From positions 372,001 through 436,000 of the forward strand of contig CP034928.1 of assembly GCA_004102645.1 (NCBI GenBank): a stretch of 64,000 nt of DNA, given 5' to 3'. The notes beneath the pieces were generated by a model. The model searched no databases and was not told the origin of the DNA. It worked only from the letters and a program-made list of their open reading frames with translations. Position 1 is the first letter of the stretch; every line of letters begins with the position of its first letter. The position numbers and the translations under genes are program-made. Shown piece by piece: positions 34,582-57,690 of this stretch. Origin of the DNA: Candidatus Bipolaricaulis sibiricus. Lineage in GTDB: Bacteria > Bipolaricaulota > Bipolaricaulia > Bipolaricaulales > Bipolaricaulaceae.

Positions 34582-35082
34582 CTACCTACGCCACAGGCAC
34601 ACGGGAGCGGTCCACACGGAGCGGATGACCGAACCGTAGCCGCGCCCCAGCTCAACGTCCTCGTTGTCCACAAGGTGGATATCGAACAGACTCCGGAGGG
34701 AAGTGCAGCCGGTGAGGGTCCGGTATCCCTGGGTCAGGAGGCGGTTCAGTCGCCAGAGGAGGCTCTCCACGGTATCGGACTTTCGCTCTACCCAGGCGAT
34801 GATGTCCACGTCCGAACTCGGGCGAGTGCGGCCATCCATCGTGCTCCCGTAGACGTACACCGCCTGGAACGCGGACCCAAGGCCAGAGACGTACGTACAG
34901 AACTCCTGGGCCAACGCGTACCGGAATGCGGAGTGAGCCCCCGGGTCGCCAGCGCGAAGATCGGCTAGGAACCGCTGCGCACTGCAACCCTCACGGGCCC
35001 CCGCGGTCCCCAGCGCTCGCGCGAGGATCCCGTCGTGGCGAACCGTCGGACCGAGGAGCAGGCTCGGGGTGCTCTCGATCAC
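34582..35082 (-). CDS. MNT-type nucleotidyltransferase-fold protein
   Basis: A 166-residue protein with the minimal nucleotidyltransferase signature VYVYGSTMDGRTRPSSDVDI (GS, then two Asp spaced D-x-D) at residues about 78-97. The flanking sequence is helical and the third acidic residue may be in LFDIHLVDNED. Its GTG start overlaps the glutamate dehydrogenase stop by four bases (GTGA), so it is translated with that gene. Related domains modify proteins or small molecules, or serve in toxin-antitoxin pairs. No HEPN partner is adjacent, so regulation of the dehydrogenase is possible but unproven. Confidence 0.68.
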   Translation of the reverse strand: MIESTPSLLLGPTVRHDGILARALGTAGAREGCSAQRFLADLRAGDPGAHSAFRYALAQEFCTYVSGLGSAFQAVYVYGSTMDGRTRPSSDVDIIAWVERKSDTVESLLWRLNRLLTQGYRTLTGCTSLRSLFDIHLVDNEDVELGRGYGSVIRSVWTAPVCLWRR

Positions 35083-36392
35083 GGGAACACCCCCCTCAGC
35101 CGGATCGCCTCGACAATGCGCTCCAACCCCAGCATGAACGCCGAGGTCCGGAGCGACACATCGTGCTTTGCCGCGTTGTCCCACACCCCCTGGAATGCAC
35201 GGCGAAGGAGGGTGCCGAGGCGGTCGTTGGTCTCCTCCTCCTCCCAGTAGAAGTTCTGCAGGTTCTGCACCCACTCGAAGTAGGACACGATGACGCCACC
35301 CGCGTTGGCAAGGATGTCGGGTGCGACAACCCGGCCCCGTTCCTCAAGGATGAGGTCGGCCTCAGGGGTGGTGGGTCCATTGGCTCCCTCGACGATGACC
35401 TGAGCCTTGATCCGGCCCGCGTTGTCTGCGGTGATCTGGCCTTCGAGCGCAGCGGGCACGAGCACGTCCACGTCGAGGGTCAGGACATCAGGCCCAGGAA
35501 GAGCCTGCACGCCGGGCGCGGCGTAGCCGGCGATCAGCCTCTGGGGTGAACGCGCCACGTGGGTGAGCAGAGCGGGGATGTCCAGACCGTTGGGGTTGTA
35601 CAGGGTTCCCGAGACGTCGGACACACCCACGACCCGCGCCCCCTTCTCGTGGAGAAGCTGGGCAGCCACAGATCCCACGTTGCCGAACCCTTGCACGGCG
35701 ACCTTGGTGCCGGCGATCCGCCTTCCGAGCCGGGCCAGAAGCTCCTCGATCACGATCACCACGCCCCGGCCGGTCGCCTCCCGTCGACCGCGCGCCCCAC
35801 CAACGGCCAGATCCTTTCCGGTGACAATGCCGTACATCGGCTCGCCCCGGAGGGCCGTCGCTGTATCCATCACCCAGTTCATGATCCGGGAGTTCGTGTT
35901 CACATCGGGCGCGGGAATGTCGTGCTGGGGGCCAATGAGAGGGAGGATCATCGCCGTGTAGCGCCGGGTCAGTCGCTCCAACTCGCCGTCGGACATCTTC
36001 GTGGGGTCACAGACGATCCCGCCCTTCCCACCACCCAATGGAATGTCGACGACGGCGCACTTCCAGGCCATCCAGCCCGCTAGGGCCTTCACCTCGTCCA
36101 TCGTGACCCCTAGGCTGTAGCGAATCCCACCCTTGTACGGCCCTCGCGCAGAGGAGTGCTGGACACGGTACCCCGTGAACACCTCGATCCGGCCATCGTC
36201 CATCCGTACCGGAAGGGAGACCTCGATCACACGCTCAGGGCGTTTCACCATCTCCAAGGTGTCCGCCGGGTACCCCAGCTTCTCTCCGGCCAGGTCCACT
36301 TGGGCCCGGAACATCTCGTACGGGTTGACTTCGGCCCCGTGCAGAGCCCGCTCGACTGTCGCTTGCGCTTGCCTTGCTTGCTCAGGCGTCAT
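35079..36392 (-). CDS. gdhA: Glutamate dehydrogenase (first copy)
   Basis: A 437-residue Glu/Leu/Phe/Val dehydrogenase. The substrate site is visible in SARGPYKGGIRYSLGVT and the catalytic lysine in [15 protein letters not shown]. The nucleotide-binding Rossmann turn is VQGFGNVGSVAAQLL (about residue 220) followed by VVGVSDVSGTLYNP. It interconverts glutamate with 2-oxoglutarate plus ammonia in the cytosol; NAD versus NADP preference is not clear. AAGGAGGGCGG lies before the ATG. A second copy lies 1.8 kb upstream on the same strand. Confidence 0.93.
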   Translation of the reverse strand: MTPEQARQAQATVERALHGAEVNPYEMFRAQVDLAGEKLGYPADTLEMVKRPERVIEVSLPVRMDDGRIEVFTGYRVQHSSARGPYKGGIRYSLGVTMDEVKALAGWMAWKCAVVDIPLGGGKGGIVCDPTKMSDGELERLTRRYTAMILPLIGPQHDIPAPDVNTNSRIMNWVMDTATALRGEPMYGIVTGKDLAVGGARGRREATGRGVVIVIEELLARLGRRIAGTKVAVQGFGNVGSVAAQLLHEKGARVVGVSDVSGTLYNPNGLDIPALLTHVARSPQRLIAGYAAPGVQALPGPDVLTLDVDVLVPAALEGQITADNAGRIKAQVIVEGANGPTTPEADLILEERGRVVAPDILANAGGVIVSYFEWVQNLQNFYWEEEETNDRLGTLLRRAFQGVWDNAAKHDVSLRTSAFMLGLERIVEAIRLRGVFP

Positions 36393-36696
36393 CTGATCCG
36401 CCCTCCTTGGGTCTGAGCCTAGGGAAGACAGAGGACTGCCACATTGCCACGATCAGAGGATGTCGCCTTCTGTTTGGCGTCCCTTCCCGTCCGCCGTGCG
36501 AAGCCACCCGCTGTCGGGGGGCAACCGGCGCATAGTCGCCGCGAAGATCACAATGATGTCAGGCGACAGTCCCGAACGGATCCACGCGACACGCCGCCAC
36601 GTTTGCTGTAGGGACGCCCCGCCTGTCAGAGTCCGGTCTGAGCGTGTGTCAGGCTTGGTTTACCCTGCTCGTCGCCTGGTCCATCCTCAGGCGAAT
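36393..36696. other. 304-bp divergent regulatory region
   Basis: Lies between gdhA and the first Crp/Fnr gene. It has no gene. It holds an inverted repeat TGTC-AGGC-GACA (36557-36568) and two more TGTCAG copies (36624 and 36647), which could be binding sites for one of the nearby Crp/Fnr-type regulators. Confidence 0.4.
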
Positions 36697-37359
36697 ATGG
36701 AGAGCCTGGGTCGCCGAAGAGAGCGCCTGATCGCCGAGGTTGCGGGTCTGCCTGGAACACTTGTTGTTCCTCACCGCGCGGGCGACCTCATCTTCCAGGA
36801 CGGTGCGTTCGCCGCCGGGGTCTACCTCGTCTCCCAGGGGCTGGTTGTGGTTGGCGGCTACCTCTCCGAAGAGCCGCGGGCCGTGGCGCTGGCGGGGCGC
36901 GGCGACCTCCTTGGCCTAGAGGCATGGCATTCGATCACCCCACCTCGCTACGAGGGCTTCGCCCGTGCCCTCACCGAGACTGAGCTTCTCTTTGCCACGG
37001 CTGACGCCTGGTCGCGGGCTCTTGATCGACCGGCGTTTCGCGAGCTTGCTCTGGCATCCCTCGCGGATCTCGTTCTTGACCAGCGAAGGCTCGCACTCCA
37101 CCGCGACTGCCCCGACCGTGCCCTGGCGTGGGCGCTCGTTCGGTGGGGTCAGCCTGTGGCCGGACAAGGTCAGGTGCGTTTGGAGATCCCAGCGGGAACC
37201 CTTGCCTCGATCCTCGGTGTGTCCCGAGGCGCGCTTCGACAGGCGGTGACCTGTCTGGCCGATCAAGGAGCTGCACAGCAAGAGAACGGGTACATCGCGG
37301 GCCACCTCGCCCGTCTGCAGGATCTCCTGGAGAGAACCCTTACAGCGTCTGCTCGATGA
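36697..37359 (+). CDS. Crp/Fnr-family regulator (first)
   Basis: About 220 residues: an N-terminal cyclic-nucleotide-binding-like barrel (GDLIFQDGAFAAGVYLVSQG and GRGDLLGLEAWHS) and a C-terminal winged helix (TLASILGVSRGALRQAVTCL). It lacks the four-cysteine set of an O2-sensing Fnr and the arginine-serine phosphate-binding motif of Crp, so its signal is unknown. The ATG at 36697 is chosen as the start of the barrel; the frame is open from 36460 but the extra part is not family-like. Its 3' end overlaps the convergent regulator by 20 bases. Confidence 0.8.
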   Translation: MESLGRRRERLIAEVAGLPGTLVVPHRAGDLIFQDGAFAAGVYLVSQGLVVVGGYLSEEPRAVALAGRGDLLGLEAWHSITPPRYEGFARALTETELLFATADAWSRALDRPAFRELALASLADLVLDQRRLALHRDCPDRALAWALVRWGQPVAGQGQVRLEIPAGTLASILGVSRGALRQAVTCLADQGAAQQENGYIAGHLARLQDLLERTLTASAR

Positions 37360-38131
37360 TTGTGCGGTACAGCTCAGGAGTACGAGCGATCTCCTCGAGT
37401 TTGCCCCGCGCGAGAATCTCGAACCCCCAGCGATGGGTGTCGATCAACCCGCGCTCACGGAACCGACGCAACATGCGCATCAAGGTCTCCAGCGAGATAC
37501 CGAGGAGCTCGGCCATCGTCTGCCGGGTAACCGGGAACTCCAGATGCACGATTCCGTCGGCGCCCGCCACGCCGTACTTGTTGGCCAGGGCGAGGAGGAG
37601 AAGTGCCAGGTTGCGGTCGACCGACTCGGTGGCCTCGCGGGTGAGCTTGAACTCGAGCATGGTTACCTCGCGGGCAAACCATCGGCATAGGTCGAACAGG
37701 ACCTGGGGGTGGTGCTGAAGGAACGCCCGCAGTCGGGCGGTCTCGAAGAACAGGAGAGAGCTGTCGACGATCGTCCGCGCGTACTGCAGGTTGATGGGGT
37801 TCCCGCCCAGGAAGAACGCTTCGAGGCCGTACCACTCTCCAGGTGCCAGAAACCGCAGCACACGCTTCTCGTGGCTCTGTGGGGCGTACTTCCCGATCGC
37901 CACCAACCCATCACACACGAGGTACACGCCAGAGGAGTACGAGTTCTCCTGGGCGATGAGCTCATCCGCGTCGTATCTCAGGACAAGAGCCAAGTCTTGA
38001 AGGGACTTCCGGTCTGACTCGGGCAGTCCCGGGAGAGCCTTCACCACACACCCAGCGGGGGAGTCCTTAGCGAGGATCTTTGGCATGCGTAGGTTCGCCC
38101 TAGTGTAGACGGTTGCGAGTGAGTTCTCCAT
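37340..38131 (-). CDS. Crp/Fnr-family regulator (second)
   Basis: A protein of up to 263 residues with a cNMP-binding-like domain (YDADELIAQENSYSSGVYLV, then APGEWYGLEAFFLGG) and a C-terminal winged helix (TRQTMAELLGISLETLMRML). An in-frame ATG at 38086 would remove 15 residues and also fits. As in its convergent partner, the Crp arginine-serine ligand motif and Fnr cysteine set are missing. It lies between the two glutamate dehydrogenase genes and after the gdh terminator, so control of ammonia or redox metabolism is plausible. Confidence 0.83.
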   Translation of the reverse strand: MENSLATVYTRANLRMPKILAKDSPAGCVVKALPGLPESDRKSLQDLALVLRYDADELIAQENSYSSGVYLVCDGLVAIGKYAPQSHEKRVLRFLAPGEWYGLEAFFLGGNPINLQYARTIVDSSLLFFETARLRAFLQHHPQVLFDLCRWFAREVTMLEFKLTREATESVDRNLALLLLALANKYGVAGADGIVHLEFPVTRQTMAELLGISLETLMRMLRRFRERGLIDTHRWGFEILARGKLEEIARTPELYRTIIEQTL

Positions 38132-38185: not shown

Positions 38186-39442
38186 CTAAGCCCAGCCCCG
38201 CAGTCGTACCGCTTCGGCCACCCGCTGCACCGAGACAAGGTAAGCGCCGAGACGGTTGTGGACCTTGTGCTCTGTTGCCGACTTGTGCACGGCGTGGAAC
38301 GCAGTGGTCATCTTCTGATCGAGGCGTTGGTGAACCTCGGCCACGTCCCAGTAGAAGTTGTAGGCGTTCTGAACCTGCTCGAAGTAGGAAACGGTGACCC
38401 CTCCGGCGTTGCACAGGAAGTCGGGGATCACGTACACCTTGTTCTTGTGCAGGATCTCGTCCGCCTCCGGTGTGGTCGGGCCGTTGGCCAACTCGGCAAC
38501 GATCTTCGCCTTGATCCGGCCGGCGTTGGCCGCGGTGATCTGGTTCTCAAGGGCGGCGGGGAAGAGGACCACCACGTCAAGCTCCAGGAGTTCAGCATTG
38601 GTCACGGGTCGGGCCTTCGGGAACCCCTTGACGGACCCCGTCCGGTCCTTGTGGGCGATGACCTCCTTGGAGGAGAGACCGTCCGGGTTGTAGATCCCCC
38701 CCTGGGAGTCCGACACGGCGACGACCTTCAGCCCCAACAGCTCCTCGCCCAAGGCATGCGCGAACTGCCCGGCGTTGCCGTACCCTTGGACCGCTGCCGA
38801 TGCGCCCCGGAGATTGATCCCGAGGACCTTGCCGGCCTCTCGGGTGCAGTACATTCCGCCTCGCGCTGTGGCGTCCCCCCGTCCCGCGGATCCACCCAAC
38901 GAGAGGGGCTTGCCCGTGATCACCCCCGGCGCGCTGTGGCCCACGATCCTCTCGTACTCATCCAGCATCCACGCCATGACTTGGGGGTTCGTGTACACGT
39001 CCGGCGCGGGAACGTCCACATCCGGACCAAGGTAGTGCCCCAGCGCGCGGATGTACGCGCGCGACAGACGCTCCAGCTCCCGCGCCGAGAGCTCCTTGGG
39101 GTTGCAGACGACCCCTCCTTTCCCGCCGCCCAGTGGGAGGTCCACGACCGCGGTCTTCCACGTCATCCATGCCGCCAGGGCGCGCACCGTGTCCACGGTC
39201 TCCTCGGGGTGAAACCGGATCCCGCCCTTGCAGGGTCCACGGGCGTTGTTGTACTGAACGCGGAACCCGGGGAAGACCCTCACCGATCCATCGTCCATCC
39301 TCACCGGGATGCGAACGTGGAACTCCCGCATCGGCCACCGCAGGAGCTCGTGAAGTCCTGGATCGAGGTCTAGTCGCTTCGCTGCCTCGTCCAGCTGACG
39401 CTGAGCGATCTCGAAAGGATTGAGGCTTGTCTGCGCCGGCAT
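38186..39442 (-). CDS. Glutamate dehydrogenase (second copy)
   Basis: A 418-residue paralogue of the enzyme at 35079. Conserved parts are [20 protein letters not shown], the catalytic-lysine segment [15 protein letters not shown], and the Rossmann turn [17 protein letters not shown] followed by [17 protein letters not shown] cysteine replaces the usual residue before KGGIRF. The ATG at 39442 is chosen over upstream starts because AGGAGG lies eight bases before it and the protein then begins [14 protein letters not shown] as in the family. The divergence between the copies suggests different coenzyme use or direction. Confidence 0.92.
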
Positions 39443-39749: not shown

Positions 39750-40238
39750 ATGACCCCACCGTCCCTCGATCCCAAGGGACACTCCTCCCTCCGCGCCCTC
39801 ATCGCGAGGTACCGCGATCGCCGGGGCGTCGCGATTCCCCTTCTGGCCGATATCCAGCGCCAGTTCGGCTACCTACCGCACGACGTGGTGGAGGAGGCGG
39901 CGCGGGCGCTCGACATCCCGGCGGCGGAGCTGTTCGGCGTGGCCACGTTCTACTCCATGTTCCGCCTCAAACCGTTGGGGAAGCACGTGATCCGCCTGTG
40001 CCGGGGAACGGCATGCCACGTCCAAGGGTCGTTGCGGATCGCCGAGGAGCTCCAGCGGCGTTTGGGCGTAGCTGAAGGGGACACCACGGAGGACGGCCTG
40101 TTCACCCTCCAGTTCGTGGCGTGCCTGGGGTGCTGCAGCCTGGCCCCGGTGATGATGGTCGGGGAGGACGTCCACGGCCGGCTGACCCCGGAGAAAGCGA
40201 TCAAGGTCCTCGACGGGTACCGGGAGGGGAAGGGGTAG
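39750..40238 (+). CDS. stnA: StnA-like [2Fe-2S] subunit (NuoE/HydC family)
   Basis: A 162-residue thioredoxin-fold Fe-S protein. The N-terminal helical part (VAIPLLADIQRQFGYLPHDV, VATFYSMF) and the four cluster cysteines (LCRGTACHVQGS and VACLGCCSLAPVMMV) are typical of NuoE/HydC. The ATG at 39750 follows AAGGGGA. In HydABC- and Stn-type complexes this subunit sits beside the FMN subunit and carries electrons. It is the first of three tightly spaced genes; the third gene decides the Stn assignment, so the symbol is by context. Confidence 0.85.
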   Translation: MTPPSLDPKGHSSLRALIARYRDRRGVAIPLLADIQRQFGYLPHDVVEEAARALDIPAAELFGVATFYSMFRLKPLGKHVIRLCRGTACHVQGSLRIAEELQRRLGVAEGDTTEDGLFTLQFVACLGCCSLAPVMMVGEDVHGRLTPEKAIKVLDGYREGKG

Positions 40239-40239
40239 G

Positions 40240-42015
40240 ATGTCCGAGCACACCGTGTTCCGGGTCGGCCTTGCCAGCTGTGGGATCGCCAGCGGAGCGG
40301 GGCCGGTCTACGATCGGCTACGGTCCATCCTTGCGGAGCGCGAGGGTGTCGAGCTCCAGCAGGTGGGGTGCATCGGGCTCTGCTTCCACGAGCCCCTCGT
40401 CGAGGTGGAGGCGGGCGGGAAGCGCCACCTCTACGGGGAGGTCACTCCGGAGGCGGTCGAGGCGATCGTGGCGTTCCATCTGCGGGGGGAGGGCGACGTC
40501 AAGGGGAATCTGGTGTTCACAACCGATGGCGACGCCCCCGAGAACGGGATGCTTGCCCGGCAGGTCCGCATCGTTCTCCGCAACTGCGGGCTCGTTGACC
40601 CGGAGCGGATCGAGGATTCCCTCGCCCGCAGCGGGTACGGGGGGTTGACCCGAGCGCTCCAGATGAAGCCCGAGGAGATCATCGCCGAGGTGGAGAAGAG
40701 CGGTCTCCGCGGGCGGGGTGGTGCGGGGTTCTCCACGGGCCTCAAGTGGAAGTTCACCCGGAGCGCCCCCGGAGACGTGAAGTACGTGGTGTGCAACGCC
40801 GACGAGGGTGACCCCGGCGCGTTCATGGACCGCTCCGTTCTGGAAGGGGATCCCCACTCCGTGCTCGAGGGGATGGCGATCTGCGCCCGGGCGGTGGGGG
40901 CAACCGAGGGCGTGATCTACTGCCGGGCCGAGTACCCTCTCGCCGTGCGCCGCCTGGAGATCGCGATTGCCCAGGCTCGGGCTGCAGGCTACCTCGGGGA
41001 GAACATCCTCGGTTCCGGGTTCTCGTTCGAGGTGCACGTGAAAGAGGGGGCCGGGGCGTTCGTGTGCGGGGAAGAGACGGCACTGCTGGCTTCGATCGAG
41101 GGTCGGCGGGGGATGCCCCGCCCGCGGCCCCCGTTCCCGGCCCAGAGGGGGCTGTGGGGGAAGCCGACGGTCATCAACAACGTGGAGACGTTCGCCAACG
41201 TGCCGTGGATCCTCGTCCACGGGGCCGATGCGTTCGCGCGCCACGGGATCGGGAGGAGCCGGGGGACGAAGGTGTTCGCGCTCGCCGGCAAGGTGCGCAA
41301 GGGGGGCCTCGTCGAGGTTCCGATGGGGATGCCCCTCCGGGAGTTGGTGGAGGGGATCGGCGGGGGGGTGGCGGAGGGGCACACGATCAAGGCCGTCCAG
41401 ATGGGCGGCCCGTCCGGCGGGTGCATCCCCGCCGAGCTCCTCGACACGCCGGTGGACTACGAGTCGATCACCGCCACCGGCGCGATCATGGGCTCGGGGG
41501 GGATGGTCGTCCTCGACGACACGAGCTGCATGGTGGACGTGGCGCGATTCTTCCTCCACTTCACCCAGGGCGAATCCTGCGGGAAGTGCCCGTTCTGTCG
41601 GATCGGGACGCGGCGGATGCTGGAGATCCTGGAGCGGATCTGCCGCGGCGAGGGAGAGACCGAGGACCTGGCGCGCCTCGAGGAGCTGTCCGTTCAGGTG
41701 AAGGATGGTTCGCTGTGCGGCCTGGGCCAGACCGCCCCCAATCCCGTCCTCACCACCCTCCGCTACTTCCGGAACGAGTACGAGGCCCACATCCGGGACA
41801 AGCGCTGCCCAGCCAAGGTGTGCACCGCGCTCGTCCACTACCGGATCGACCCTGGGACGTGCATCGGGTGCACCCTGTGCGCCCGCCAGTGTCCGGTGAG
41901 AGCGATTGCCGGCGAGCGGCGGAAGGTCCACACGATTGCGGACGAGACCTGTGTCCGCTGTGGGCAGTGCGTGGCGGTGTGCCCGGTGGGAGCCATCACG
42001 GTGGAGTCGCCATGA
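40240..42015 (+). CDS. stnB: StnB-like NADH-binding flavoprotein (NuoF/HydB family)
   Basis: A 591-residue protein with four parts: an N-terminal thioredoxin-like [2Fe-2S] domain (cysteines in LASCGIAS and GCIGLC), the FMN site (GLRGRGGAGFSTGLKWKF), the NADH site (EGAGAFVCGEETALL), the [4Fe-4S] N3 cluster (ESCGKCPFCRIG), and a C-terminal 2x[4Fe-4S] ferredoxin (CIGCTLCARQCP and CVRCGQCVAVCP). This is the HydB/StnB layout of bifurcating complexes, where FMN splits electrons between NAD and ferredoxin pathways. It starts one base after the previous stop, and its end overlaps the third gene (ATGA). Confidence 0.9.
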   Translation: MSEHTVFRVGLASCGIASGAGPVYDRLRSILAEREGVELQQVGCIGLCFHEPLVEVEAGGKRHLYGEVTPEAVEAIVAFHLRGEGDVKGNLVFTTDGDAPENGMLARQVRIVLRNCGLVDPERIEDSLARSGYGGLTRALQMKPEEIIAEVEKSGLRGRGGAGFSTGLKWKFTRSAPGDVKYVVCNADEGDPGAFMDRSVLEGDPHSVLEGMAICARAVGATEGVIYCRAEYPLAVRRLEIAIAQARAAGYLGENILGSGFSFEVHVKEGAGAFVCGEETALLASIEGRRGMPRPRPPFPAQRGLWGKPTVINNVETFANVPWILVHGADAFARHGIGRSRGTKVFALAGKVRKGGLVEVPMGMPLRELVEGIGGGVAEGHTIKAVQMGGPSGGCIPAELLDTPVDYESITATGAIMGSGGMVVLDDTSCMVDVARFFLHFTQGESCGKCPFCRIGTRRMLEILERICRGEGETEDLARLEELSVQVKDGSLCGLGQTAPNPVLTTLRYFRNEYEAHIRDKRCPAKVCTALVHYRIDPGTCIGCTLCARQCPVRAIAGERRKVHTIADETCVRCGQCVAVCPVGAITVESP

Positions 42016-45000
42016 ACCGGACGGTGCGGGTTCTCCTCGACGGGCATGAGGCCCACGGCTTCCCGGGGCAGACGATCCTCTCGCTGTGCGCTGACTGTGG
42101 CATCGAGATACCCACGCTCTGCCACGATCCCCACCTTTCCCCCCACGGCGGGTGCTCGCTGTGCCTGGTCGACGTGAAGGGGGCCCGGACCCTTGTCCGC
42201 GCTTGTGTGACCGAGCTCACCCCCGGCATGGAGATCCGAACGAACACGGACCGCGTGCGCCGGGCCCGGAAGACGGACCTCGAGCTCCTCCTCTCGGATC
42301 ACGTCGGTGACTGCCGACCACCGTGCACGCTCGCCTGCCCGGCGCGGGGCGATGTCCAGGGGTACGTGAACCTCGCCGCCCAGGGCAAGTACACAGAGTC
42401 CCTGGCCGCCCTCCACGAGAACGTGACCCTTCCCGCCTCGATCGGGCGGGTGTGCCCTGCCCCGTGCGAGGAGGTCTGTCGCCGGAACTTCGTGGATGAC
42501 GAACCCGTGTCGATCCGGGAGATCAAGCGCTTCGTCGGGGACTGGTGTCTGGCCCACGGGGACCTCGGGACGATCCCTCTGGCCGCGGACAACGGCCGGT
42601 CCGTGGCGATCGTCGGCGGCGGGCCCGCCGGACTGTCCGCGGCCTACTACCTCCGGCGGCTGGGGTACGCGGTGACCCTCTACGAGAAGGAGGCGCACCT
42701 CGGAGGGATGATGCGGTACGGGATACCCGACTACCGCCTGCCCCCGGCCGTCCTCCAGGCGGAGATCGACTGGATCCTCGCCCACGGGATTGGGGTTCGC
42801 ACGGGGACCGCCCTCGGCCGGGATGTGACCCTCGACGAGCTTCGGGAGGGTTACGACGCGGTCCTCCTCGCCCTCGGGTGCTGGCGGTCCTCTTCCCTAC
42901 GCGTGCCGGGAGAGGACCTCCCGGGAGTTCTCCCGGGGATCGGGTTTCTCTACGAGGTGAACGCGGGCCGTCCCCCGCACATCGGCCGTCGGGTGGCGGT
43001 GATCGGGGGAGGGAACACGGCGATGGACGCCGCCCGCTGCGCCCGCCGCCTCGGGGCAGACGAGGTCACCGTCGTCTACCGCCGGTCGCGGGCGGAGATG
43101 CCGGCCCAGCCGATCGAGGTCGAGGAGGCGATGGAGGAAGGGATCGAGTTCGCGTTCCTTGCCGCGCCGAAGGCGATCGAGGGCACTGGCAAGGTCGAAC
43201 GGCTCCTGTGCGAGCGGATGGAGCTCGGGGAGCCGGACGCGTCGGGCCGTCGCCAGCCCGTGCCCACGGGCGAGACGTTCCAGCTCGTGGTGGACACGGT
43301 GATCGCCGCGGTGGGACAGGCGGCGGACCTGTCCGCGCTCCCGAGGGAGCTCCACGACGGCCGGTGGCCCAAGGTGGATGACCACTACGCGACGCCAATC
43401 CCCGGCGTGTTCGCCTGCGGCGACCTCCGCACCGGGCCCGACATCGCGATCGGCGCGATCGGTGAGGGGCACTGGGCGGCCCTCTCGATCCACCGCTACC
43501 TCACGGTAGGGGAACCCCGACGCCCCTACGAGTGCGATGTGGTCCAGAGGGACCTCGGGCCGAAGGACTTCGCGGATCGGCCAAGGATCCCCCGGGAGCA
43601 CCCCGGGGTGGCCTCCGCCGCGGACCGCCTTGGGGCACCGTGGGGCGAGTTCAACGCCGGCCTCGCCGAGGACCAGGTCCTCCGCGACGCCGCGCGGTGC
43701 ATGGAGTGCGGGTGCCCCGACCTCCACGAGTGCAAGCTCCGTCGGTACAGCGTGGAGTACGAGGCGTCCCCGGACCGCTACGCCGGGGCCCACGTCCCGC
43801 GCCTCGCGGAGGCCAACCCGTTCTACGACCGGAACATGGACAAGTGCGTCCTGTGTGGCCGCTGCGTGCGGGCGTGCGACGAGATCGCGGGGTTCCACGC
43901 CATCGACTTCGTCCGCCGGGGGTTCGAGGGGACGATCGGCGCGGAGTTCCTGCGGCCGATCGAGACCGCGGAGTGCACCGGTTGTGGGATGTGCGTCCAG
44001 CTCTGCCCGGTGGGAGCGCTGGTCGAGAAGCGCCTCCCACGCCGCGTTCACAGCGCCCGGCTCCGGGCGGTGGCCACCCACTGCGGGGAGTGCCCGGTGG
44101 GGTGTGACCTTCTTCTCGATGTCGAACCCCTGTCGGGACGGATCGTTCGGGTTCGGACGGACCTCGACGCAGTCCGCGGGGTGAGCTTCGGGAACGCCTG
44201 CGCCCGCGGGCGGCTTGCTCCATTCAACCTGCACGAAGGCCGGCTTGAGCAGCCCCTGCTTCGGTTGCGCGGGCGGGCGCGCGAGGTGGGGTGGAGCGAG
44301 TTCTTGGACAAGGTTTCTTCCTTCGTGCGAGGGGGAATCCCGGGAACCGCGATTCTTGCTGCAGCAGATCTGGCAAGTGAGGACTACCGGGCTCTGCACG
44401 ACCTCGTGGGCACCCTTCCCGGCCCGTGCCTGGTCGCTGTGGATGAGGTGGCGACAACAGCGCCGCTGTGGGCAGGACTTGCCGAGCGTGGAGAGGGGGC
44501 GCAGGCAGGGTTGGCGGAGTTGCGTGAGGCGGACCTCGTTCTTCTTCTTGGTGCGCACCTCGAGGAGGAGCAGCCCGTGCTCGCGTCGTGGATCCGCCTG
44601 TCGATGCGTCGGTCGAGGTTGCGTGTTGTCGCTGTGGGAGGCAACCTCGGGCGACTCGCGAGGGGCGACACCTTGTGGTTCGACGCCTCTCCTGCTGACC
44701 AGGCGCGGGTTCTTGCCGCACTCCGTGATTGTCTGCACGGGGAGAGGTCCTCTTCGAGTGAGCCCGGTCTCGGTCGGGCGGCTGATCGGCTCAAGGAGGG
44801 GAAGCGGATCGTGGTCCTCATCGGATCGGAGCTTGCCGCAGACGAATCGGGACGGCGGGCACTGGCGGATCTCCTCGAATCAGTGGGACAGCCCAAGCTC
44901 ATCCCTCTCTACCGCGGAGCGAACGTCCGCGGTGCTCGGGCTCTTGCCGAGCGCGGTGTCTCGGCCGCCGACGTGGCAGCCGCGGTGAGGGCCGGTACCG

Positions 45001-45299
45001 TGAGGACGCTGTTCGCCGTTGGTGCAGATCCGCTCGACCACGGCCTCACCGAGGAGGACCTTCGCAAGCTGGACTGCTACGTGCTGCTCCACTCCTTCCG
45101 AACAAGGTCGCTTTCGGTGGCCCGCGCCGCGGCTCCGTCTGCCCGGTGGCTGGAGCGGGATGGGACCTTCGAGAACCTCACCGGGGCGACCCTGTCATGG
45201 AAAGCGGCCGCGGTTCCGCCTGGTGCAGCGAAGCCGCTGCCCTGGATCGTCGCTGGCCTGGTGCGGCGTCTGGGGGCATCTGCTGCGCCGAGGGGTTAG
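42012..45299 (+). CDS. stnC: StnC-like subunit: NuoG-like Fe-S domains fused to a GltD/NfnB-like NADPH flavodomain
   Basis: A 1095-residue multidomain protein. In order: a NuoG-type [2Fe-2S] domain (residues 1-80, cysteines 26-51); a cysteine-rich adaptor (about 100-160); an FAD/NADPH flavodomain like GltD and NfnB (about 195-490, dinucleotide turns VGGGPAG at 201 and IGGGNTA at 331); two [4Fe-4S] clusters (CVLCGRCVRAC at 612 and CTGCGMCVQLC at 655); then a molybdopterin-oxidoreductase-like region opening CGECPVGC (691) and CARG (about 734) that ends early, with no formate-dehydrogenase active-site Sec/Cys seen. No [FeFe]-hydrogenase H-cluster motif is present. This fusion is the hallmark of StnC, which links NADPH to the StnAB core in ferredoxin-dependent transhydrogenases. 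Confidence 0.85.
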   Translation: MNRTVRVLLDGHEAHGFPGQTILSLCADCGIEIPTLCHDPHLSPHGGCSLCLVDVKGARTLVRACVTELTPGMEIRTNTDRVRRARKTDLELLLSDHVGDCRPPCTLACPARGDVQGYVNLAAQGKYTESLAALHENVTLPASIGRVCPAPCEEVCRRNFVDDEPVSIREIKRFVGDWCLAHGDLGTIPLAADNGRSVAIVGGGPAGLSAAYYLRRLGYAVTLYEKEAHLGGMMRYGIPDYRLPPAVLQAEIDWILAHGIGVRTGTALGRDVTLDELREGYDAVLLALGCWRSSSLRVPGEDLPGVLPGIGFLYEVNAGRPPHIGRRVAVIGGGNTAMDAARCARRLGADEVTVVYRRSRAEMPAQPIEVEEAMEEGIEFAFLAAPKAIEGTGKVERLLCERMELGEPDASGRRQPVPTGETFQLVVDTVIAAVGQAADLSALPRELHDGRWPKVDDHYATPIPGVFACGDLRTGPDIAIGAIGEGHWAALSIHRYLTVGEPRRPYECDVVQRDLGPKDFADRPRIPREHPGVASAADRLGAPWGEFNAGLAEDQVLRDAARCMECGCPDLHECKLRRYSVEYEASPDRYAGAHVPRLAEANPFYDRNMDKCVLCGRCVRACDEIAGFHAIDFVRRGFEGTIGAEFLRPIETAECTGCGMCVQLCPVGALVEKRLPRRVHSARLRAVATHCGECPVGCDLLLDVEPLSGRIVRVRTDLDAVRGVSFGNACARGRLAPFNLHEGRLEQPLLRLRGRAREVGWSEFLDKVSSFVRGGIPGTAILAAADLASEDYRALHDLVGTLPGPCLVAVDEVATTAPLWAGLAERGEGAQAGLAELREADLVLLLGAHLEEEQPVLASWIRLSMRRSRLRVVAVGGNLGRLARGDTLWFDASPADQARVLAALRDCLHGERSSSSEPGLGRAADRLKEGKRIVVLIGSELAADESGRRALADLLESVGQPKLIPLYRGANVRGARALAERGVSAADVAAAVRAGTVRTLFAVGADPLDHGLTEEDLRKLDCYVLLHSFRTRSLSVARAAAPSARWLERDGTFENLTGATLSWKAAAVPPGAAKPLPWIVAGLVRRLGASAAPRG

Positions 45300-45440: not shown

Positions 45441-45524
45441 GGCGTTCGGGAAGTGAGGATATCGGTTGCGTTTCCTCTTTTCACAAGCGCATCTGTGCGG
45501 AACAGAGGCCCAAGGAGTGACCCC

Positions 45525-46469
45525 ATGGAAGTCGTGAGGTTTGGGAGTGAAGTGACTGAAGATCAGGACACCGCGGAAGAGGAGGTCATGTGGTGGGATG
45601 CCGAGCGGGAGAGCCGGCGCAGCCCGGAGAACCCGATTCGGACCTACTTCGACGAGATCTCCCGCGTTCCTCTGCTGACGAAGGAGGAGGAGGTGTCCCT
45701 CGCCCAGCGCGTCGAGGCGGGCGAGAAGGAGGCCAAGGAGAAGCTTGCCGAGGCCAACCTACGCTTGGTGGTCTCGATCGCCAAGAAGTACCGCGGATGT
45801 GGGCTTCCGTTCCTCGACCTGATCCAGGAGGGGAACCTCGGCCTGATGAAGGCGGTCGAGAAGTTCGACTGGCGCAAGGGCTACAAGTTCTCGACGTATG
45901 CCACGTGGTGGATCCGCCAGGCGATCCTGCGCGCGATCACCAACCGCTCGCGCACGATTCGGGTGCCGACGCACATCAACGAGCTCATCCGCAAGATCCA
46001 CCAGGCGGAGCGTGAGCACCTCAAGGAGCACGGCACCGGACCCAGTCTGGAGGAGCTGGCGGAGGGTCTGGAGACAACGGTCGACAACATCGTGAAGGCG
46101 AAGAAGACATCCCAGTACACCGCTTCGCTCGACACCCCGATCGGCTATGAAGACGAAGGGGCGGTCCTCGGCGACTTCATCGAAGACGAGGGTGCGATCT
46201 CTCCGACCCGGGAGACGTTCAAGGAGCTTCTCCAGCAGGAGCTGCAGAAGGCCCTCAAGGACCGGCTGACCCCTCGTGAGCGGCGAGTGATCGAGCTTCG
46301 CTACGGTCTGGATGGGACTGCACCCAAGACGCTTGACGACGTGGGTGACATCTTCGGGATCTCGCGTGAGCGGGTTCGGCAGATTCAGAAAGAAGGTCTG
46401 GAGAAGCTACGGGACTCGTCTGTGTTGCGCAAACTCGAGCAGTTCAGACAGATCCTCGAGGAGAGCTGA
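45525..46469 (+). CDS. Sigma-70 factor, primary type (RpoD/SigA-like), short form
   Basis: A 314-residue RNA polymerase sigma factor with region 1.2 ([20 protein letters not shown]), 2.1-2.4 ([20 protein letters not shown], then [18 protein letters not shown]), region 3, and 4.1-4.2 ([17 protein letters not shown], then [18 protein letters not shown]). Region 1.1 and the non-conserved insert are absent. All primary-sigma contacts for -10 and -35 recognition look intact, so it may be the housekeeping factor or a close alternative. ATG 45525 has CAAGGAGTG upstream and is preferred to the open frame start at 45453. It converges with topA, ten bases apart. Confidence 0.88.
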
Positions 46470-46479
46470 ACCGCACGGT

Positions 46480-48750
46480 CTACGATTTGCGCTTCTTTGC
46501 AGTGCCCCGCTTTGGGCGCTTGGCGGCCGGAGCGGGGCTCTCTTCTGCCCTCGTCGGGCAGTCGGCGTTCGAACAGCGCTGTCCTCGGCGCGGGTCGTCG
46601 TAGACCACGCCTTCTCCACACGCGGGGCAGGGCTCGATCGGGAGCCCAGGAACGCGAAACCTGCAGTCCGGGTACCGCGAGCAGGCGTAGAACGTTCCGT
46701 AGCGGTTCCCGAAACGCTCCACAAGGTTGCCCTCGCCACACTGGGGGCACGGTACGCCGCTCGGTACGGGAGCGGTCGCCCTGCAGCTCGGGCAGGCGAG
46801 ATAGCGGCCGTAACGGCCGTGACGGAGGACCATCGCGGTTCCGCACTTCGGGCAGGAGGTCGCCGGCGCGGCATCGACTGCGGCCAAGCTCGCGCTGAGC
46901 TCGACGCGGTCGGCTGAATAGCGGAACGGAGCGGTGGGGGGGATGTTCTTCGTGGTGCGGCACTCGGGGTACCGCGAGCATCCGAGGTAGAGACTTCCCT
47001 TCCAGACCCGTACCTCCATCGGTGCCCCGCACGATGGGCAGGCCACATCACTGAGCGCCCGGAACGGCTTTTCGCCCCGCGACAGCGTCTCCTCCACCGT
47101 GTGCAGCTTGGGAGAGAACCAACGGTAGAACGAGCGCAGGAGCTCTCCACGCCCGAGGGCGCCTTCCTGAACGCGATCGAGGTCTTCCTCCATTTTGGCG
47201 GTGAACTCGGCCTCCACGGTCTCCGGGAAGTACAGGCGCAGGAGGTCGGTCACAAGGTGCCCGAGAAGGGTCGGCCGGAGCGAACTCCCCTCTCGCACGA
47301 CGTACCCCCGGTCCTGGATGACAGACACGATCTGCGCATAAGTGCTGGGACGACCGATTCCCTCCTGTTCGAGCTTGCGCACGATTCCTGCCTCGGTGAA
47401 ACGCTTCGGCGGCTCCGTCTGGTGCTCTTCGACCTCGATCTCCGGGCGGGGAAGCTCCTGGCCCGGGGTCAGCGCCGTGGGGAGAGGCGCGTCCTCGTCC
47501 TCGAGCTGCGCCACGGGGAGCACAGAGGAGAACCCTGGCGACTTCATCCGTGACGAGGACGTGCGGAACAACTGGTCGCCGGCGCGGATGGAGACCTTCC
47601 GGCGTACCCAGACGCCATCGGCCATCTGGGTGGCGACGAACCGTCGCCAGATGAGATCGTAGAGCTTCCGCTGCTCCGGGGTGAGATGGGGGGCCACCTC
47701 GTCAGGGGTGCGCGCGACCTGTGTCGGCCGGATCGCCTCGTGGGCGTCCTGCGCCCGGCGCCTGTTCCGGAAGTGCCGAGGCTTGGGAGAGAGCGCCTTG
47801 GGGCCGAACGTGTCCCTCACGAACGCCCGCGCGGCCGCGATCGCCGAATCGGCTACTCGCACGGAGTCGGTGCGCATGTACGTGATGAGCCCGACCATTT
47901 CGCCGCCAATGGATACCCCCTCGTAGAGGCTCTGGGCGATCTGCATCGTGCGCCGGGGGGAGAACCCGAGCTCGCTCGACGCTGCCTGCTGGAGGGTCGA
48001 GGTGATGAACGGGGCCGAGGGACGACGGACGACCTCCTCCTCCTCCACCGCGTCCACCGTGAACCGCGCCTGGGCGAGCGCATGAACAAGCGCCTCTACT
48101 TCACCCCGAGCGGTGAGCCGGCTGTCGAGCCGCGCGGTGAACGGGGGCTCGGTGGGGAACGACGCCGTCACCTCCCAGTACGACTCGGGGACGAACTCCT
48201 GGATCTCGATCTCGCGATCGCAGATGAACCGCAGGGCCACAGACTGCACGCGGCCAGCCGACAGGCCTTCAAACCTGCGCCCGGCCAGAACCCGCGACAG
48301 GAGCGGGCTGATCTGGTACCCCACGAGCCGGTCGAGGATCCGCCGCGCCCGCTGAGCCTCAACCTTGGCGAGGTCAATCGGACCGGGATGGCCAAGCGCC
48401 TCGCGCACGGCTTGGGGGGTGATCTCATGCAGTAGAACCCGTGCATAGCGATCGCCGTCGCCAAGGAGTTCCATCAGGTCATACGCGATCGCTTCGCCCT
48501 CCCGGTCCGGGTCGGTGGCGAGGTAGATACGAGGAGCGTCCTGGGCCCTCTTGCGAAGCTCGGCCAGCAGCTTGCGGTCGCGCACGACCCACTTTGGCGT
48601 GAACTCATCATTCAGCTCCACGCCCAGCTCCTTGGCGGGGAGGTCCCGAACGTGCCCCTTCGACGAGAGAACCACAAACTCCTTGCCGAGGTAGGACGAG
48701 AGGGTACGGGCTTTTGTCGGCGACTCGACGATCACGAGGTCTTTGGGCAT
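46480..48750 (-). CDS. topA: DNA topoisomerase I
   Basis: A 756-residue type IA topoisomerase that relaxes negative supercoils. The TOPRIM domain opens with IVESPTKARTLSSYLG and has YLATDPDREGEAIAYDL. The nucleophilic tyrosine is in GLITYMRTDSVR (about residue 292). The C-terminus carries several four-cysteine zinc ribbons: CPSCGAPMEVR with LGCSRYPECR, CPKCGTAMVLR with LACPSC, CPQCGEGNL with YACSRYPDC, and a last CPACGEG. A basic tail (KRPKRGTAKKRKS) follows. No Shine-Dalgarno sequence precedes the ATG and the predicted leader is about nine bases. Confidence 0.95.
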   Translation of the reverse strand: MPKDLVIVESPTKARTLSSYLGKEFVVLSSKGHVRDLPAKELGVELNDEFTPKWVVRDRKLLAELRKRAQDAPRIYLATDPDREGEAIAYDLMELLGDGDRYARVLLHEITPQAVREALGHPGPIDLAKVEAQRARRILDRLVGYQISPLLSRVLAGRRFEGLSAGRVQSVALRFICDREIEIQEFVPESYWEVTASFPTEPPFTARLDSRLTARGEVEALVHALAQARFTVDAVEEEEVVRRPSAPFITSTLQQAASSELGFSPRRTMQIAQSLYEGVSIGGEMVGLITYMRTDSVRVADSAIAAARAFVRDTFGPKALSPKPRHFRNRRRAQDAHEAIRPTQVARTPDEVAPHLTPEQRKLYDLIWRRFVATQMADGVWVRRKVSIRAGDQLFRTSSSRMKSPGFSSVLPVAQLEDEDAPLPTALTPGQELPRPEIEVEEHQTEPPKRFTEAGIVRKLEQEGIGRPSTYAQIVSVIQDRGYVVREGSSLRPTLLGHLVTDLLRLYFPETVEAEFTAKMEEDLDRVQEGALGRGELLRSFYRWFSPKLHTVEETLSRGEKPFRALSDVACPSCGAPMEVRVWKGSLYLGCSRYPECRTTKNIPPTAPFRYSADRVELSASLAAVDAAPATSCPKCGTAMVLRHGRYGRYLACPSCRATAPVPSGVPCPQCGEGNLVERFGNRYGTFYACSRYPDCRFRVPGLPIEPCPACGEGVVYDDPRRGQRCSNADCPTRAEESPAPAAKRPKRGTAKKRKS

Positions 48751-48852: not shown

Positions 48853-50755
<1,903 letters not shown>

Positions 50756-51365: not shown

Positions 51366-53936
51366 CTAGCGTTGGATGTAGACGAACCCCTTGAACTCCC
51401 ACGCCCGCGCCTGGGGGATGGTTGTCTCCACTCGCGCAACATAGATGTAGGCGCCGTTGCGAAGGTTGGCACCGTCCCAGGACACGGATGCCGTATCGGT
51501 TCCCAGGATTTCTCCCACCCGCCTGCCGGTGAGGTCGTACACCGACACGCGGATCCTGCCGGCGCTGGCCGCAACGGGCTCGGAGATGAGGGAGAACGTC
51601 GTCTGAATGGAGAAGGGGTTGGGTGTGATCGCGATTCCGGTGACCTTGTCCGGTCCCACGGCTACCACCTGCGCCGCAGCTTGTCCTGTACGGCGAGCAT
51701 CGCCGGGGTCTGTATAGACTGCCCGCAAGGTGCCCAGGAGAACGTCGCTGGGCAGGGTCCAGGTGACGCGGAACCGCGCAGTTTCTCCGGCCACGGTAGC
51801 GATCACGTCCCAGGTCTTGATCGTCCTTCCCTGAGCGTCGATCAGCGCAAGGATGCCCGCCCCGCGGATCTCCGGCAGCGTGGCGTAGAGGGGATCGGTC
51901 ACAGTGACCATGAGCGGCGCTCCGGGGTAGTACGTAGTGCGGTCGAAGGCCACGGTGATGCCAGGCGTAGGCGGAACCCCACCCGCGCCGCCTTCGGCGA
52001 CCTTCACCGTCGCGATCGCGATGTCGGAGTGGTTCGACGGGTCCTGGTAGAAGGCGATGATCGTATCGCCCGGCGACGAGCTGAGCGTTCCCGTTCCCGA
52101 GACGGGGATGCAGGTCGTCGAGCGGAACACCCCGGATCCCACGGCTGTCTCGCGCAGCGACAGCATCTCCCACGAGCCGTTCTGCGCGTTCCAGAGGAAG
52201 ATCTTCGCTGTAGGGACGACACCGCTGATGCTCGCGGCGGCCAGCATCCTTGCCCCCGGGGTCAACCGGTCATCTGTCGTCTCTGTGCGGGACTGAGGCC
52301 AGATCGGGTAGCTGTGCTCACTGCGTGGGTCGCTGAGGGTGTTGTCGGCAGAAGAGGAGTCCCGGTTCCACGCGCCGAAGATGAGCTCCCTCAAGCGAGG
52401 ATCTTCGTTTTGGTCAGGATCCTCTACTTCTACGTACAGGGTCCCCGACATCGGGATCTCGGTGACGGGTTGGTAGTTGCCGTCGAGAATGCGAAGCCGA
52501 CACTCCGCCCCATCGAGGACCTGGGTGTCGAACAGCTTCACCTGGGCGAACGACACGTCCCATGGCTGGCGCGGGTTCGGCCGGCCAGGGTTGGTCCCTA
52601 GGTAGACCACGCGCACCCGAACCTCGGCGATCAGCTCGCCTGTCCCGTTCTTGGGGCGGAGCGTCACAACGTTGATCACAGGATTGGGCGCCCCTTCGGG
52701 AATCGTGTAGGTGAACGACTCAGTCCAGGTCTGCCCCCCGGCTAGGGTCAGTTCCCGCTCGATCCCCAGGAGTGGGTCGGACAAGCGGAACGTTCGTCGG
52801 GCTGTATCTCCGTTCGTCACCGTGATCGTGAATTCGACGGTCTCCCCGGGAAACGCCTGGTCGGGGGCGACGGTCTTCTCGAGGGTGATCCGCTCCATCC
52901 CCGGCGGAACAACGCGCACTGAGGCGTCGTCCTGGGCCCCGATCTCGCGCGGGCCGCTTGTCCCCGTGTACGTCCCGCGGACCACGGCGATGTTCGCCAC
53001 CGGACCCGGCAGATCGGCCTCGGTCACGGTGTACGTGGCCGTTCCCTCGGTCGTCTCGTCGGGATCGAGAGCGGTCTTTCCCAGCGTGATCGCGCCGAGC
53101 TTGTCGTCGCTGAGAGCGAGCCCGCTGAGGGCGAACGTCCCGTCGTTGGTGACGGTGTACCGATAGGTGATCGTCTCGCCGAGACGAGCGCTCGGCCGAT
53201 CCGCGGTCTTGTCGAGGTGAATCGAGGGTCGCATCAACCGGACCGTTGCCGTGGCACTCGCGGTGACCGCCGCCGAATCGCCCGCCACTTGGGCAGTCCC
53301 GTAGACGACGGCCGTGTTCACGACCCTCCCGCTCGGATCGTCGGGAAGGGCGTGGGTTCGCGTGACCCCCTGGGACGCTCCCACCGCCAGCGCCGCGTCT
53401 TGGAGCGGGATCGTACCGAGTTTGTCGTCCGAGATCTGGTCCAGCACGAGCGACGTGCTTCCCGTGTTCCGAATCGTGAACGTGTAGGTGATGGTGGCTC
53501 CCACCTCGGCTTGCGTGGGATTCGCCTCTTTGGCGAGCGCGACGGCAGCGGTTGGGATGTGTGTGTAGGCGTTCGCGACCACGGAGCGGTTGTACTTGTC
53601 CTTGCCCTGGGCTGTTACATCCACCGGGAAGGGACCGGGGAGGTCGGCGAGGGTGAGGGTGTACGTCCGCGATCCTGTTGCGGTCTCGCCGGGATCGAGG
53701 ATCGTCTTGGCCAAGGTGATGGACGCGCCGTAGTTATCGTTCAGAAGGAGGTTCTCGATTCTGAGGTCCCCCGTGTTCTGCACGGAGAACTGACAGGTCA
53801 CCGTCTCTCCCACGCCGAACACCTGCCGGTTCGGCGAGATCGTCACCAGGATGCTCGACTGCTCCGTGGTCTGTCCCCACCCCACCCACCACAGAGCGCC
53901 CGCCATCCCCAGAGCCAACACCTGTCTGATCTTCAT
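51366..53936 (-). CDS. Large secreted surface protein with DUF11-like repeats
   Basis: An 856-residue exported protein. Signal peptide MKIRQVLALGMAGALWWVGWG is followed by four or five DUF11/CARDB-like beta domains (about residues 30-460), each with a phrase like GETITYRYTVTNDGTFALS and DPDETTEGTATYTVTEADLPG. A different module follows (about 470-640) with SGTLYVEVEDPDQNEDPRLR, GSGVFRSTTCIPVSGTG and GDTIIAFYQDPSNHSDIA. The C-terminus has a FlgD-like fold (AITPNPFSIQTTFSL, VSVYDLTGRRVGEI, SWDGANLRNGAYIYVARVE), as in sorted or anchored surface proteins. It lies nine bases after the neighbouring secreted-protein gene, so the two are cotranscribed. Role: envelope structure or adhesion, inferred. 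Confidence 0.78.
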   Translation of the reverse strand: MKIRQVLALGMAGALWWVGWGQTTEQSSILVTISPNRQVFGVGETVTCQFSVQNTGDLRIENLLLNDNYGASITLAKTILDPGETATGSRTYTLTLADLPGPFPVDVTAQGKDKYNRSVVANAYTHIPTAAVALAKEANPTQAEVGATITYTFTIRNTGSTSLVLDQISDDKLGTIPLQDAALAVGASQGVTRTHALPDDPSGRVVNTAVVYGTAQVAGDSAAVTASATATVRLMRPSIHLDKTADRPSARLGETITYRYTVTNDGTFALSGLALSDDKLGAITLGKTALDPDETTEGTATYTVTEADLPGPVANIAVVRGTYTGTSGPREIGAQDDASVRVVPPGMERITLEKTVAPDQAFPGETVEFTITVTNGDTARRTFRLSDPLLGIERELTLAGGQTWTESFTYTIPEGAPNPVINVVTLRPKNGTGELIAEVRVRVVYLGTNPGRPNPRQPWDVSFAQVKLFDTQVLDGAECRLRILDGNYQPVTEIPMSGTLYVEVEDPDQNEDPRLRELIFGAWNRDSSSADNTLSDPRSEHSYPIWPQSRTETTDDRLTPGARMLAAASISGVVPTAKIFLWNAQNGSWEMLSLRETAVGSGVFRSTTCIPVSGTGTLSSSPGDTIIAFYQDPSNHSDIAIATVKVAEGGAGGVPPTPGITVAFDRTTYYPGAPLMVTVTDPLYATLPEIRGAGILALIDAQGRTIKTWDVIATVAGETARFRVTWTLPSDVLLGTLRAVYTDPGDARRTGQAAAQVVAVGPDKVTGIAITPNPFSIQTTFSLISEPVAASAGRIRVSVYDLTGRRVGEILGTDTASVSWDGANLRNGAYIYVARVETTIPQARAWEFKGFVYIQR

Positions 53937-55610: not shown

Positions 55611-55786
55611 CTGTCCCCCTTGTACGCCGCCGAGCAGCGTCTGTAGCGTAGATTACTGACAACGATTCCAGCCACCGATGTAGGCGGTCGCCCCTTCAGG
55701 GGATTCCCGGGGCACCCGTAGCACACCTTCTTCCTCCCCACGGCGGTCGCCTGTCAGGGGGCACTCGCTTGTCCCAAGCACAGCGG

Positions 55787-55815
55787 TTGTCTGCGCCGGA
55801 GAGGCCGGGTATAAA
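55787..55815 (+). promoter_or_regulatory. efp operon promoter
   Basis: TTGTCT (55787-55792), 17 bases, then TATAAA (55810-55815), about 16 bases upstream of a GAGGAGG ribosome site. Confidence 0.6.
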
Positions 55816-55838
55816 AGGTCGATCTGAGGAGGCGTTGA

Positions 55839-56402
55839 ATGGGCATTTCCATTGGCGAGATCTCGCGAGGGATGACCCTCATCTTCGACGGTGAGCTGTA
55901 CGAGGTGACCGAGTTCGAGCACGTCAAGCTCGGCCGGGGTGGGGCGTTCGTTCGAGCGAAGATGAAGAACCTGCGTTCCGGTCAGGTCATCTCCAAGACC
56001 CTGAAGGACTCGGACAACCTCGAGACGGCGTACCTTGATACCCGTATCCTCCAGTACCTGTACCAGGCCGGGGGCAAGTACACGTTCATGGACAAGGAGA
56101 CCTTCGAGCAACATGAGCTGTCCGCGGAGGTGGTGGAACCGTTTCGCGGCTATCTGCTGGAGGGCATTGATTTTACGGGCCTGTTCTACCAGGATCGCAT
56201 GGTGAAGGTGATACCGCCGAACTTCGTGGACCTGCGGGTCGTCGAAGCTCCGCCCGGGACGAAGGGTGATACAGCCACCGGGGGGCAGAAACCGGTGACT
56301 CTGCAGACAGGGCTTGTGGTGAAGGTGCCGTTGTTCGTGACCGCGGGCGAGGTGATCCGGGTGGACACGCGCACCGGCGCCTATGTGGAGCGGGTGAGCT
56401 AA
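55839..56402 (+). CDS. efp: Elongation factor P
   Basis: A 187-residue translation factor that rescues ribosomes stalled on polyproline. All three beta-barrel domains are present, ending VKVPLFVTAGEVIRVDTRTG. The tip loop reads HVKLGRGGAFVR: arginine 33 stands where lysine is usual (PGKGGA), and leucine replaces the preceding proline. Arginine-type EF-P is rhamnosylated by EarP in some proteobacteria; no earP gene is in view. GAGGAGG precedes the ATG. It heads an operon with two Asp23 genes, an AmaP-like gene, nusB and a PHP gene. Confidence 0.95.
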   Translation: MGISIGEISRGMTLIFDGELYEVTEFEHVKLGRGGAFVRAKMKNLRSGQVISKTLKDSDNLETAYLDTRILQYLYQAGGKYTFMDKETFEQHELSAEVVEPFRGYLLEGIDFTGLFYQDRMVKVIPPNFVDLRVVEAPPGTKGDTATGGQKPVTLQTGLVVKVPLFVTAGEVIRVDTRTGAYVERVS

Positions 56403-57689: not shown

Positions 57690-57690
57690 C

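Follow-up and report, generated by a model that had tools for sequence, protein, structure and literature searches.

A three-gene cluster, stnABC, lies at positions 39750-45299 of the stretch of Candidatus Bipolaricaulis sibiricus DNA analysed here (the window, 64,000 nucleotides), and it very probably encodes an electron-bifurcating Stn transhydrogenase that holds both the role and the chromosomal slot of the Nfn transhydrogenase of sister species, nfnAB having been displaced in place beside glutamate dehydrogenase (GDH) genes. The complex itself is a further Stn of known type; the new point is the recurrent in-place swap of nfn and stn, which provides natural evidence that Stn and Nfn, bifurcating at different flavins, are interchangeable in vivo. 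A broader proposition, that NfnAB and StnABC are mutually exclusive alternative alleles of one locus across Bipolaricaulota, repeatedly exchanged, partly by flank recombination, with one per species and a tie to GDH in one family, stands in our judgement evenly between acceptance and rejection. We found neither a report of nfn/stn replacement in place nor a mention of NfnAB in Bipolaricaulota in the open-access literature, which is not proof of absence.

Identity of the StnABC complex

The predicted products have the composition of the three Stn subunits. StnA (39750-40238, + strand; 162 amino acids, aa) is a NuoE/HydC-like [2Fe-2S] subunit with a 2Fe-2S_thioredx domain (PF01257, E 1.6e-52) and the cluster cysteines C84, C89, C125 and C129; StnB (40240-42015, +; 591 aa) is a NuoF/HydB-like subunit for flavin mononucleotide (FMN) and NAD(H), in which Pfam recognizes Complex1_51K, NADH_4Fe-4S and two C-terminal Fer4 domains, corresponding to a ferredoxin domain with two [4Fe-4S] clusters; and StnC (42012-45299, +; 1095 aa) combines a Fer2 domain, a GltD/NfnB-like domain for flavin adenine dinucleotide (FAD) and NADP(H), and a NuoG/FdhF-like domain (Fer2_4, Fer4_20, Pyr_redox_2, Fer4_Nqo3, Molybdop_Fe4S4 and Molybdopterin in the Pfam scan). 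The genes are tightly packed, stnB starting one base past the stnA stop and stnC overlapping stnB by ATGA. Among solved structures, StnB is best matched by StnABC of Sporomusa ovata (8oh5_B, E 1e-253), the top matches of StnC are 9bov_A (E 7e-213) and 8oh5_C (E 4e-208, residues 6-1088, end to end), and StnA matches the HydC/StnA group (7t2r_C, 9n5u_C, 9bov_C and 8oh5_A).

The likeness to S. ovata StnABC (PMC7483475, PMC10482914) extends from subunits and domain order to individual residues. StnB is 62.9% identical to its S. ovata counterpart and keeps 24 of 25 cysteines, including every ligand of the ferredoxin-like C-terminal clusters, and the loop residues E184/D186 of S. ovata StnB correspond to E189/D191. 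Comparison with S. ovata shows that StnC has lost no cluster ligand (26 cysteines and K172, serving one [2Fe-2S] and six [4Fe-4S] clusters); K172 is the equivalent of the unusual lysine ligand K170, the FAD-site residue R239 is kept as R242, and the NADP-type Rossmann motif GGGNTAMDAAR...YRRSRAEMPA aligns with that of S. ovata. Unlike the S. ovata protein, the window StnC is about 77 aa shorter. It was described as truncated with its Fe-S cysteines intact in an earlier note on this DNA; the cysteines are indeed all there, but the length is an ordinary one, because copies of 1071-1241 aa, including some of 1071-1073 aa, are on record (PMC7483475) and most full-length StnC proteins of Bipolaricaulota have about 1050-1140 aa.

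Phylogeny places StnB in the same group. In a quick tree of 65 rows, with Shimodaira-Hasegawa-like approximate likelihood ratio test (SH-aLRT) support and without bootstraps, the window StnB belongs to a Stn clade of 54 rows that contains S. ovata (SH-aLRT 100) and excludes Thermotoga maritima HydB, the 7t2r [NiFe]-HydB and the hydrogenase HydB of the host itself; within this clade it clusters first with three other Bipolaricaulota and then with Synergistota, which are its closest relatives outside the phylum and in which StnC lengths of about 1070-1130 aa are common. Similarly, the nearest relatives of the window StnC (71-76% identity) are mostly Acetothermia/Bipolaricaulota records, followed by Synergistota, mostly at about 50-65%, and at only about 50-55% when the full length is compared. 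The [FeFe] hydrogenases HydABC and the 7t2r-type [NiFe] bifurcating hydrogenases share the StnA/StnB-like bifurcating module, but they have H-cluster or [NiFe] subunits where Stn has the NADPH-binding StnC. No Fe_hyd_lg_C (H-cluster) domain (PF02906) was found in the whole 1.70 Mb host genome, in a search for which T. maritima served as a positive control. Thus, the earlier assignment of the three genes to StnA, StnB and StnC, and not to HydABC, has held on domains, structural matches, ligands and StnB clade, and to judge from these similarities the cluster is a complete Sporomusa-type bifurcating transhydrogenase, with the corresponding activity predicted.

Two other functions were weighed. 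With the FdhF/NuoG-like domain of its StnC (PF00384, PF04879), the complex might serve a formate dehydrogenase or a hydrogenase as diaphorase or NADPH module, the gene for the catalytic subunit being located elsewhere. However, the Pfam scan detected no C-terminal Molydop_binding domain in StnC, as a complete FdhA would possess; the formate dehydrogenase matches were partial and far weaker than that to S. ovata StnC (3.5e-47 versus 4e-208), so that StnC does not appear to group with these enzymes; and S. ovata StnC shows no formate oxidation (PMC7483475). In addition, the other NuoF-type genes of the host (at about 1.12 Mb) adjoin NuoE-, HoxU- and [NiFe] hydrogenase-type subunits of their own, and a missing catalytic subunit was not borne out. 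We regard a module of this kind as extremely improbable. The second function is that of Nso, the Thermococcus NADPH-dependent sulfur oxidoreductase, acting in sulfur reduction or another non-bifurcating oxidation of NADPH. NsoABC/NfnABC of Thermococcales has the same three-subunit architecture with a GltD-NuoG fusion, StnC finds its third-best match in the NfnABC structure 9n5u, and Nso has been rated highly similar to Stn (PMC7483475); yet the C-terminal domain of the Thermococcales proteins is shorter, and several of the eight ferredoxin-like cysteines, all kept in the window StnC, are lost in the alignment with 9n5u chain A. Given also the end-to-end alignment with S. ovata StnC and the one-for-one swap with NfnAB described below, an Nso-like function has very little probability.

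As a Stn transhydrogenase, the complex would take hydride from NADPH at the GltD-like FAD of StnC and pass electrons through the Fe-S chain to the FMN of StnB, and the StnA-StnB module would split them between NAD+ and ferredoxin, in a reaction expected to be reversible.

Mutual exclusion of Stn and Nfn

We scanned 100 genomes of Bipolaricaulota, mostly incomplete metagenome-assembled genomes (MAGs), with single contigs for G000 and G004 (codes for genomes, G, genera, g, families, f, and loci, L, are labels of this analysis). Stn was called from a StnC-type match reaching past the GltD domain, and Nfn from a TIGR01316 match over the cut-off, which serves as a proxy for Nfn. StnC-type proteins were present in 26 genomes and NfnB in 40, with no overlap where 10.4 genomes were expected (P 1e-7); fragments at contig edges in three further genomes resolve to Nfn (G007, G008) and to Stn (G017), and with these added the counts are 27 and 42, the overlap is still 0, against about 11 expected, and P is 1.4e-8, although neither P value takes account of shared ancestry. 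Because relatives are not independent, a better measure is the number of genera that hold both Stn species and Nfn species, which is nine. The StnC reading frame of G017, a MAG, is apparently interrupted, through either sequencing error or decay (L189:6796-9386; longest open reading frame 630 aa).

The host follows this pattern: no TIGR01316 match exceeded the cut-off in its genome, and no gene for the PyrK-like NfnA lies beside stn. Likewise, none of the 20 Stn-positive Synergistota genomes tested had NfnB over the cut-off. Stn and Nfn are known to be almost mutually exclusive in acetogens, with no phylogenetic or physiological trait found behind their distribution (Kremp et al., PMC7483475); our data extend this exclusion to a phylum in which most sampled genomes lack acetyl-CoA synthase (ACS).

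Replacement of nfn by stn in a shared slot

Gene order in the family of the window is gdh1(-) crp(+) crp(-) gdh2(-), the slot, rpoD(+) topA(-) groEL(-). In the window, the conserved block on the left of the slot consists of gdh1, a second glutamate dehydrogenase gene (35079-36392, -), a second Crp-type regulator gene (36460-37359, +; PF00027, start codon uncertain), a Crp/Fnr-type regulator gene (37340-38131, -; PF00027 and PF13545) and gdh2 (38186-39442, -), which is divergent from stnA. The right-hand border is a gene for an rpoD-type sigma factor (45453-46469, +), followed by topA (46480-48750, -) and groEL (48853-50472, -), all three named by sequence. The slot is filled by nfnB-nfnA on the minus strand in G006, G019, G023, G024, G025 and G026 and, as seen at the rpoD side, in G004 and G011. 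In G018, G020 and G022 it contains stnABC oriented as nfn is, whereas in G000, G012 and G014 stnABC is inverted. The rpoD border is found too in the Nfn-positive sister species G004, G006 and G011. The Nfn of the slot matches T. maritima NfnAB (4ylf; NfnB, E 5e-182; NfnA, E 5e-92), and to judge by sequence the displaced operon is a genuine Nfn. Known Nfn members catalyse the same reaction as Stn, but with two subunits and with only the GltD-like domain in common, and bifurcation takes place at the FAD of NfnB, as opposed to the FMN of StnB in the S. ovata structure (PMC10482914).

The exchange is not confined to the family of the window. Under strict limits of length and identity, Stn and Nfn species share flanks in all nine two-state genera, on both sides in g1, g6, g28, g32, g34 and g39 and on one side only in g2, g14 and g35, where contigs end. 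In two genera, flank identity at the nucleotide level stays at 95-98% as far as the point of exchange (G079/G082 of g34, and G097/G099 of g39 on the upstream side only): the upstream flank of G079 and G082 is 97% identical over 5.1 kb, ending within 116 bp of stnA, and that of G097 and G099 is 98% identical over 4.1 kb, ending within 150 bp of stnA. Such close species pairs allow selection for Stn versus Nfn, if any, to be addressed.

Shared position might be a coincidence, if a recombination hotspot beside gdh and rpoD received Stn and Nfn genes that do different jobs; the stn allele of g34 brought extra genes, a GDH gene and Crp regulators among them, and so the slot is open to further genes. 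Against this stand the exclusion of Stn and Nfn at the level of whole genomes among the 100 examined, exchange in other families, at loci without rpoD/gdh2 flanks, and the orientation of stn, which outside the genus of the window enters as nfn does, with StnA at the NfnA end. We therefore see rather little chance that the coincidence accounts for the pattern, and the one-for-one replacement of Nfn supports a transhydrogenase function of the window complex. The g34 allele of G079 (L140:2001-12891, about 10.9 kb) replaces a 2.5 kb nfn segment of G082 (L174:2403-4891), and its additional genes look as if GDH and Stn had travelled together.

The direction of replacement is recorded in two genera by nfnB remnants that lie beside stnC in the orientation of nfnB: G015 retains residues 147-461 in frame-shifted form, and G097 and G098 retain a 3' part (residues 288-460), which clusters with the intact NfnB of G099 from the same genus (g39). 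These remnants mean that nfnAB was displaced by stnABC in place. Trees agree with this direction, NfnB grouping by family and largely by genus across the phylum, whereas a single clade of all Bipolaricaulota Stn copies is rejected (approximately unbiased (AU) test, p 4e-69), as is monophyly of the window lineage with the g6/f9 lineage (AU p 0.006); because the copies form no single clade, Stn was gained on two to three occasions or more, and at least two or three separate Stn lineages took part in the swap. The reverse order, with Stn as the ancestral occupant and nfnAB inserted later, draws on lineage II of Stn, which roughly tracks host family and genus and may be old in the phylum. We consider this order unlikely, as we noticed no traces of stn next to nfn and both the nfnB remnants and the two to three separate Stn lineages point the other way. 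The StnB of G040 (L142) pairs with full support with that of a Thermoplasmatota archaeon (L048, GSL isolate), which suggests a transfer between domains.

For the window itself, several points weigh against replacement of nfnAB by a functional equivalent, in addition to the incompleteness of most genomes sampled and the ancestry that they share. The stnABC genes of its genus are inverted relative to nfnAB, and a search for nfn remnants in the intergenic regions of the window gave nothing above chance; because no nfnB remnant is present, we infer the displacement in this genus from the shared slot. Functions of both Stn and Nfn in Bipolaricaulota are predicted from sequence. The window StnC has V115 at the position of S. 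ovata C114, which tunes cluster C7, although Val or Ile has been reported there in some other homologs (PMC10482914). Lastly, no GDH gene was found within the flanking DNA retrieved around Synergistota stn (8 kb at most), and the GDH coenzyme in the electron flow proposed below is our inference. With these points included, we still favour a Stn transhydrogenase in the former place of Nfn with high confidence.

Glutamate dehydrogenase and host metabolism

The earlier suggestion of a link between Stn and GDH is upheld within the family of the window, where several nfn relatives have gdh2 18-132 bp after nfnB and on its strand (or overlapping it; start codons are uncertain) and three stn relatives have it on the strand of stnC, 47-68 bp past that gene, a close spacing that suggests co-transcription. 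In the flanks retrieved, it does not reach to Synergistota, and on these grounds the idea that Stn generally adjoins GDH was given up. The genes of S. ovata, for their part, come after metVF and do not adjoin gdh and rpoD. The nearest solved relatives of the gdh2 product are 1bvu, 1euz and 1gtm, presumably Thermococcales enzymes that prefer NADP. The most likely flow would run from glutamate oxidation to NADPH and through Stn to NADH and reduced ferredoxin, which may then be used for H2 formation by the [NiFe] hydrogenase.

The host is a member of Candidatus Bipolaricaulota whose genome is a single contig; B. anaerobius has been described as an H2-making amino-acid fermenter (PMC6092417). The [NiFe] hydrogenase operon (L084:10072-17396, genome about 1118071-1125395) encodes HoxU-like and NuoE-like subunits together with two NuoF-like subunits that differ from each other; in the StnB tree, the second of these is highly divergent. 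Family searches of the host genome detected FTHFS and found no CdhC/ACS, RnfC or PntB; because ACS, Rnf, PntB and Nfn were all undetected, the host is probably not an acetogen. Some members of the phylum have the Wood-Ljungdahl pathway and others lack it (PMC9992828); as far as ACS shows, the host is one of the latter. The earlier note had presented this Stn as one outside the classical acetogens: this agrees with a host without detectable ACS, in which it differs from S. ovata, but is not new, since Kremp et al. 2020 (PMC7483475) had already recorded Stn in several groups, among them Synergistetes and Proteobacteria. Across the 100 genomes, ACS occurs in 5 of 26 genomes with Stn and in 17 of 40 with Nfn (P 0.06), and so Stn at most weakly tends away from acetogens; on these counts, we dropped the idea that Stn goes with the Wood-Ljungdahl pathway. 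A Prismane-family protein of 554 aa is encoded at genome positions 718658-720283, and its length suggests that it is probably a hybrid cluster protein and not a CO dehydrogenase.

Other genes in and beside the window

On the right of the window, a protein of 856 aa in which DUF7507/DUF11/CARDB domains recur (51366-53936, -) is likely located at the cell surface, and next to it large proteins without a Pfam match are encoded at 53946-58506. At the opposite end, a YgfK-type GltD fusion, which apart from StnC is the one GltD-like protein of the host genome to exceed the family cut-off, is found together with apparent molybdenum hydroxylase (xanthine dehydrogenase-like) genes at and to the left of the window border (window 1-376 and L089:7293-14376), and this combination suggests purine breakdown.

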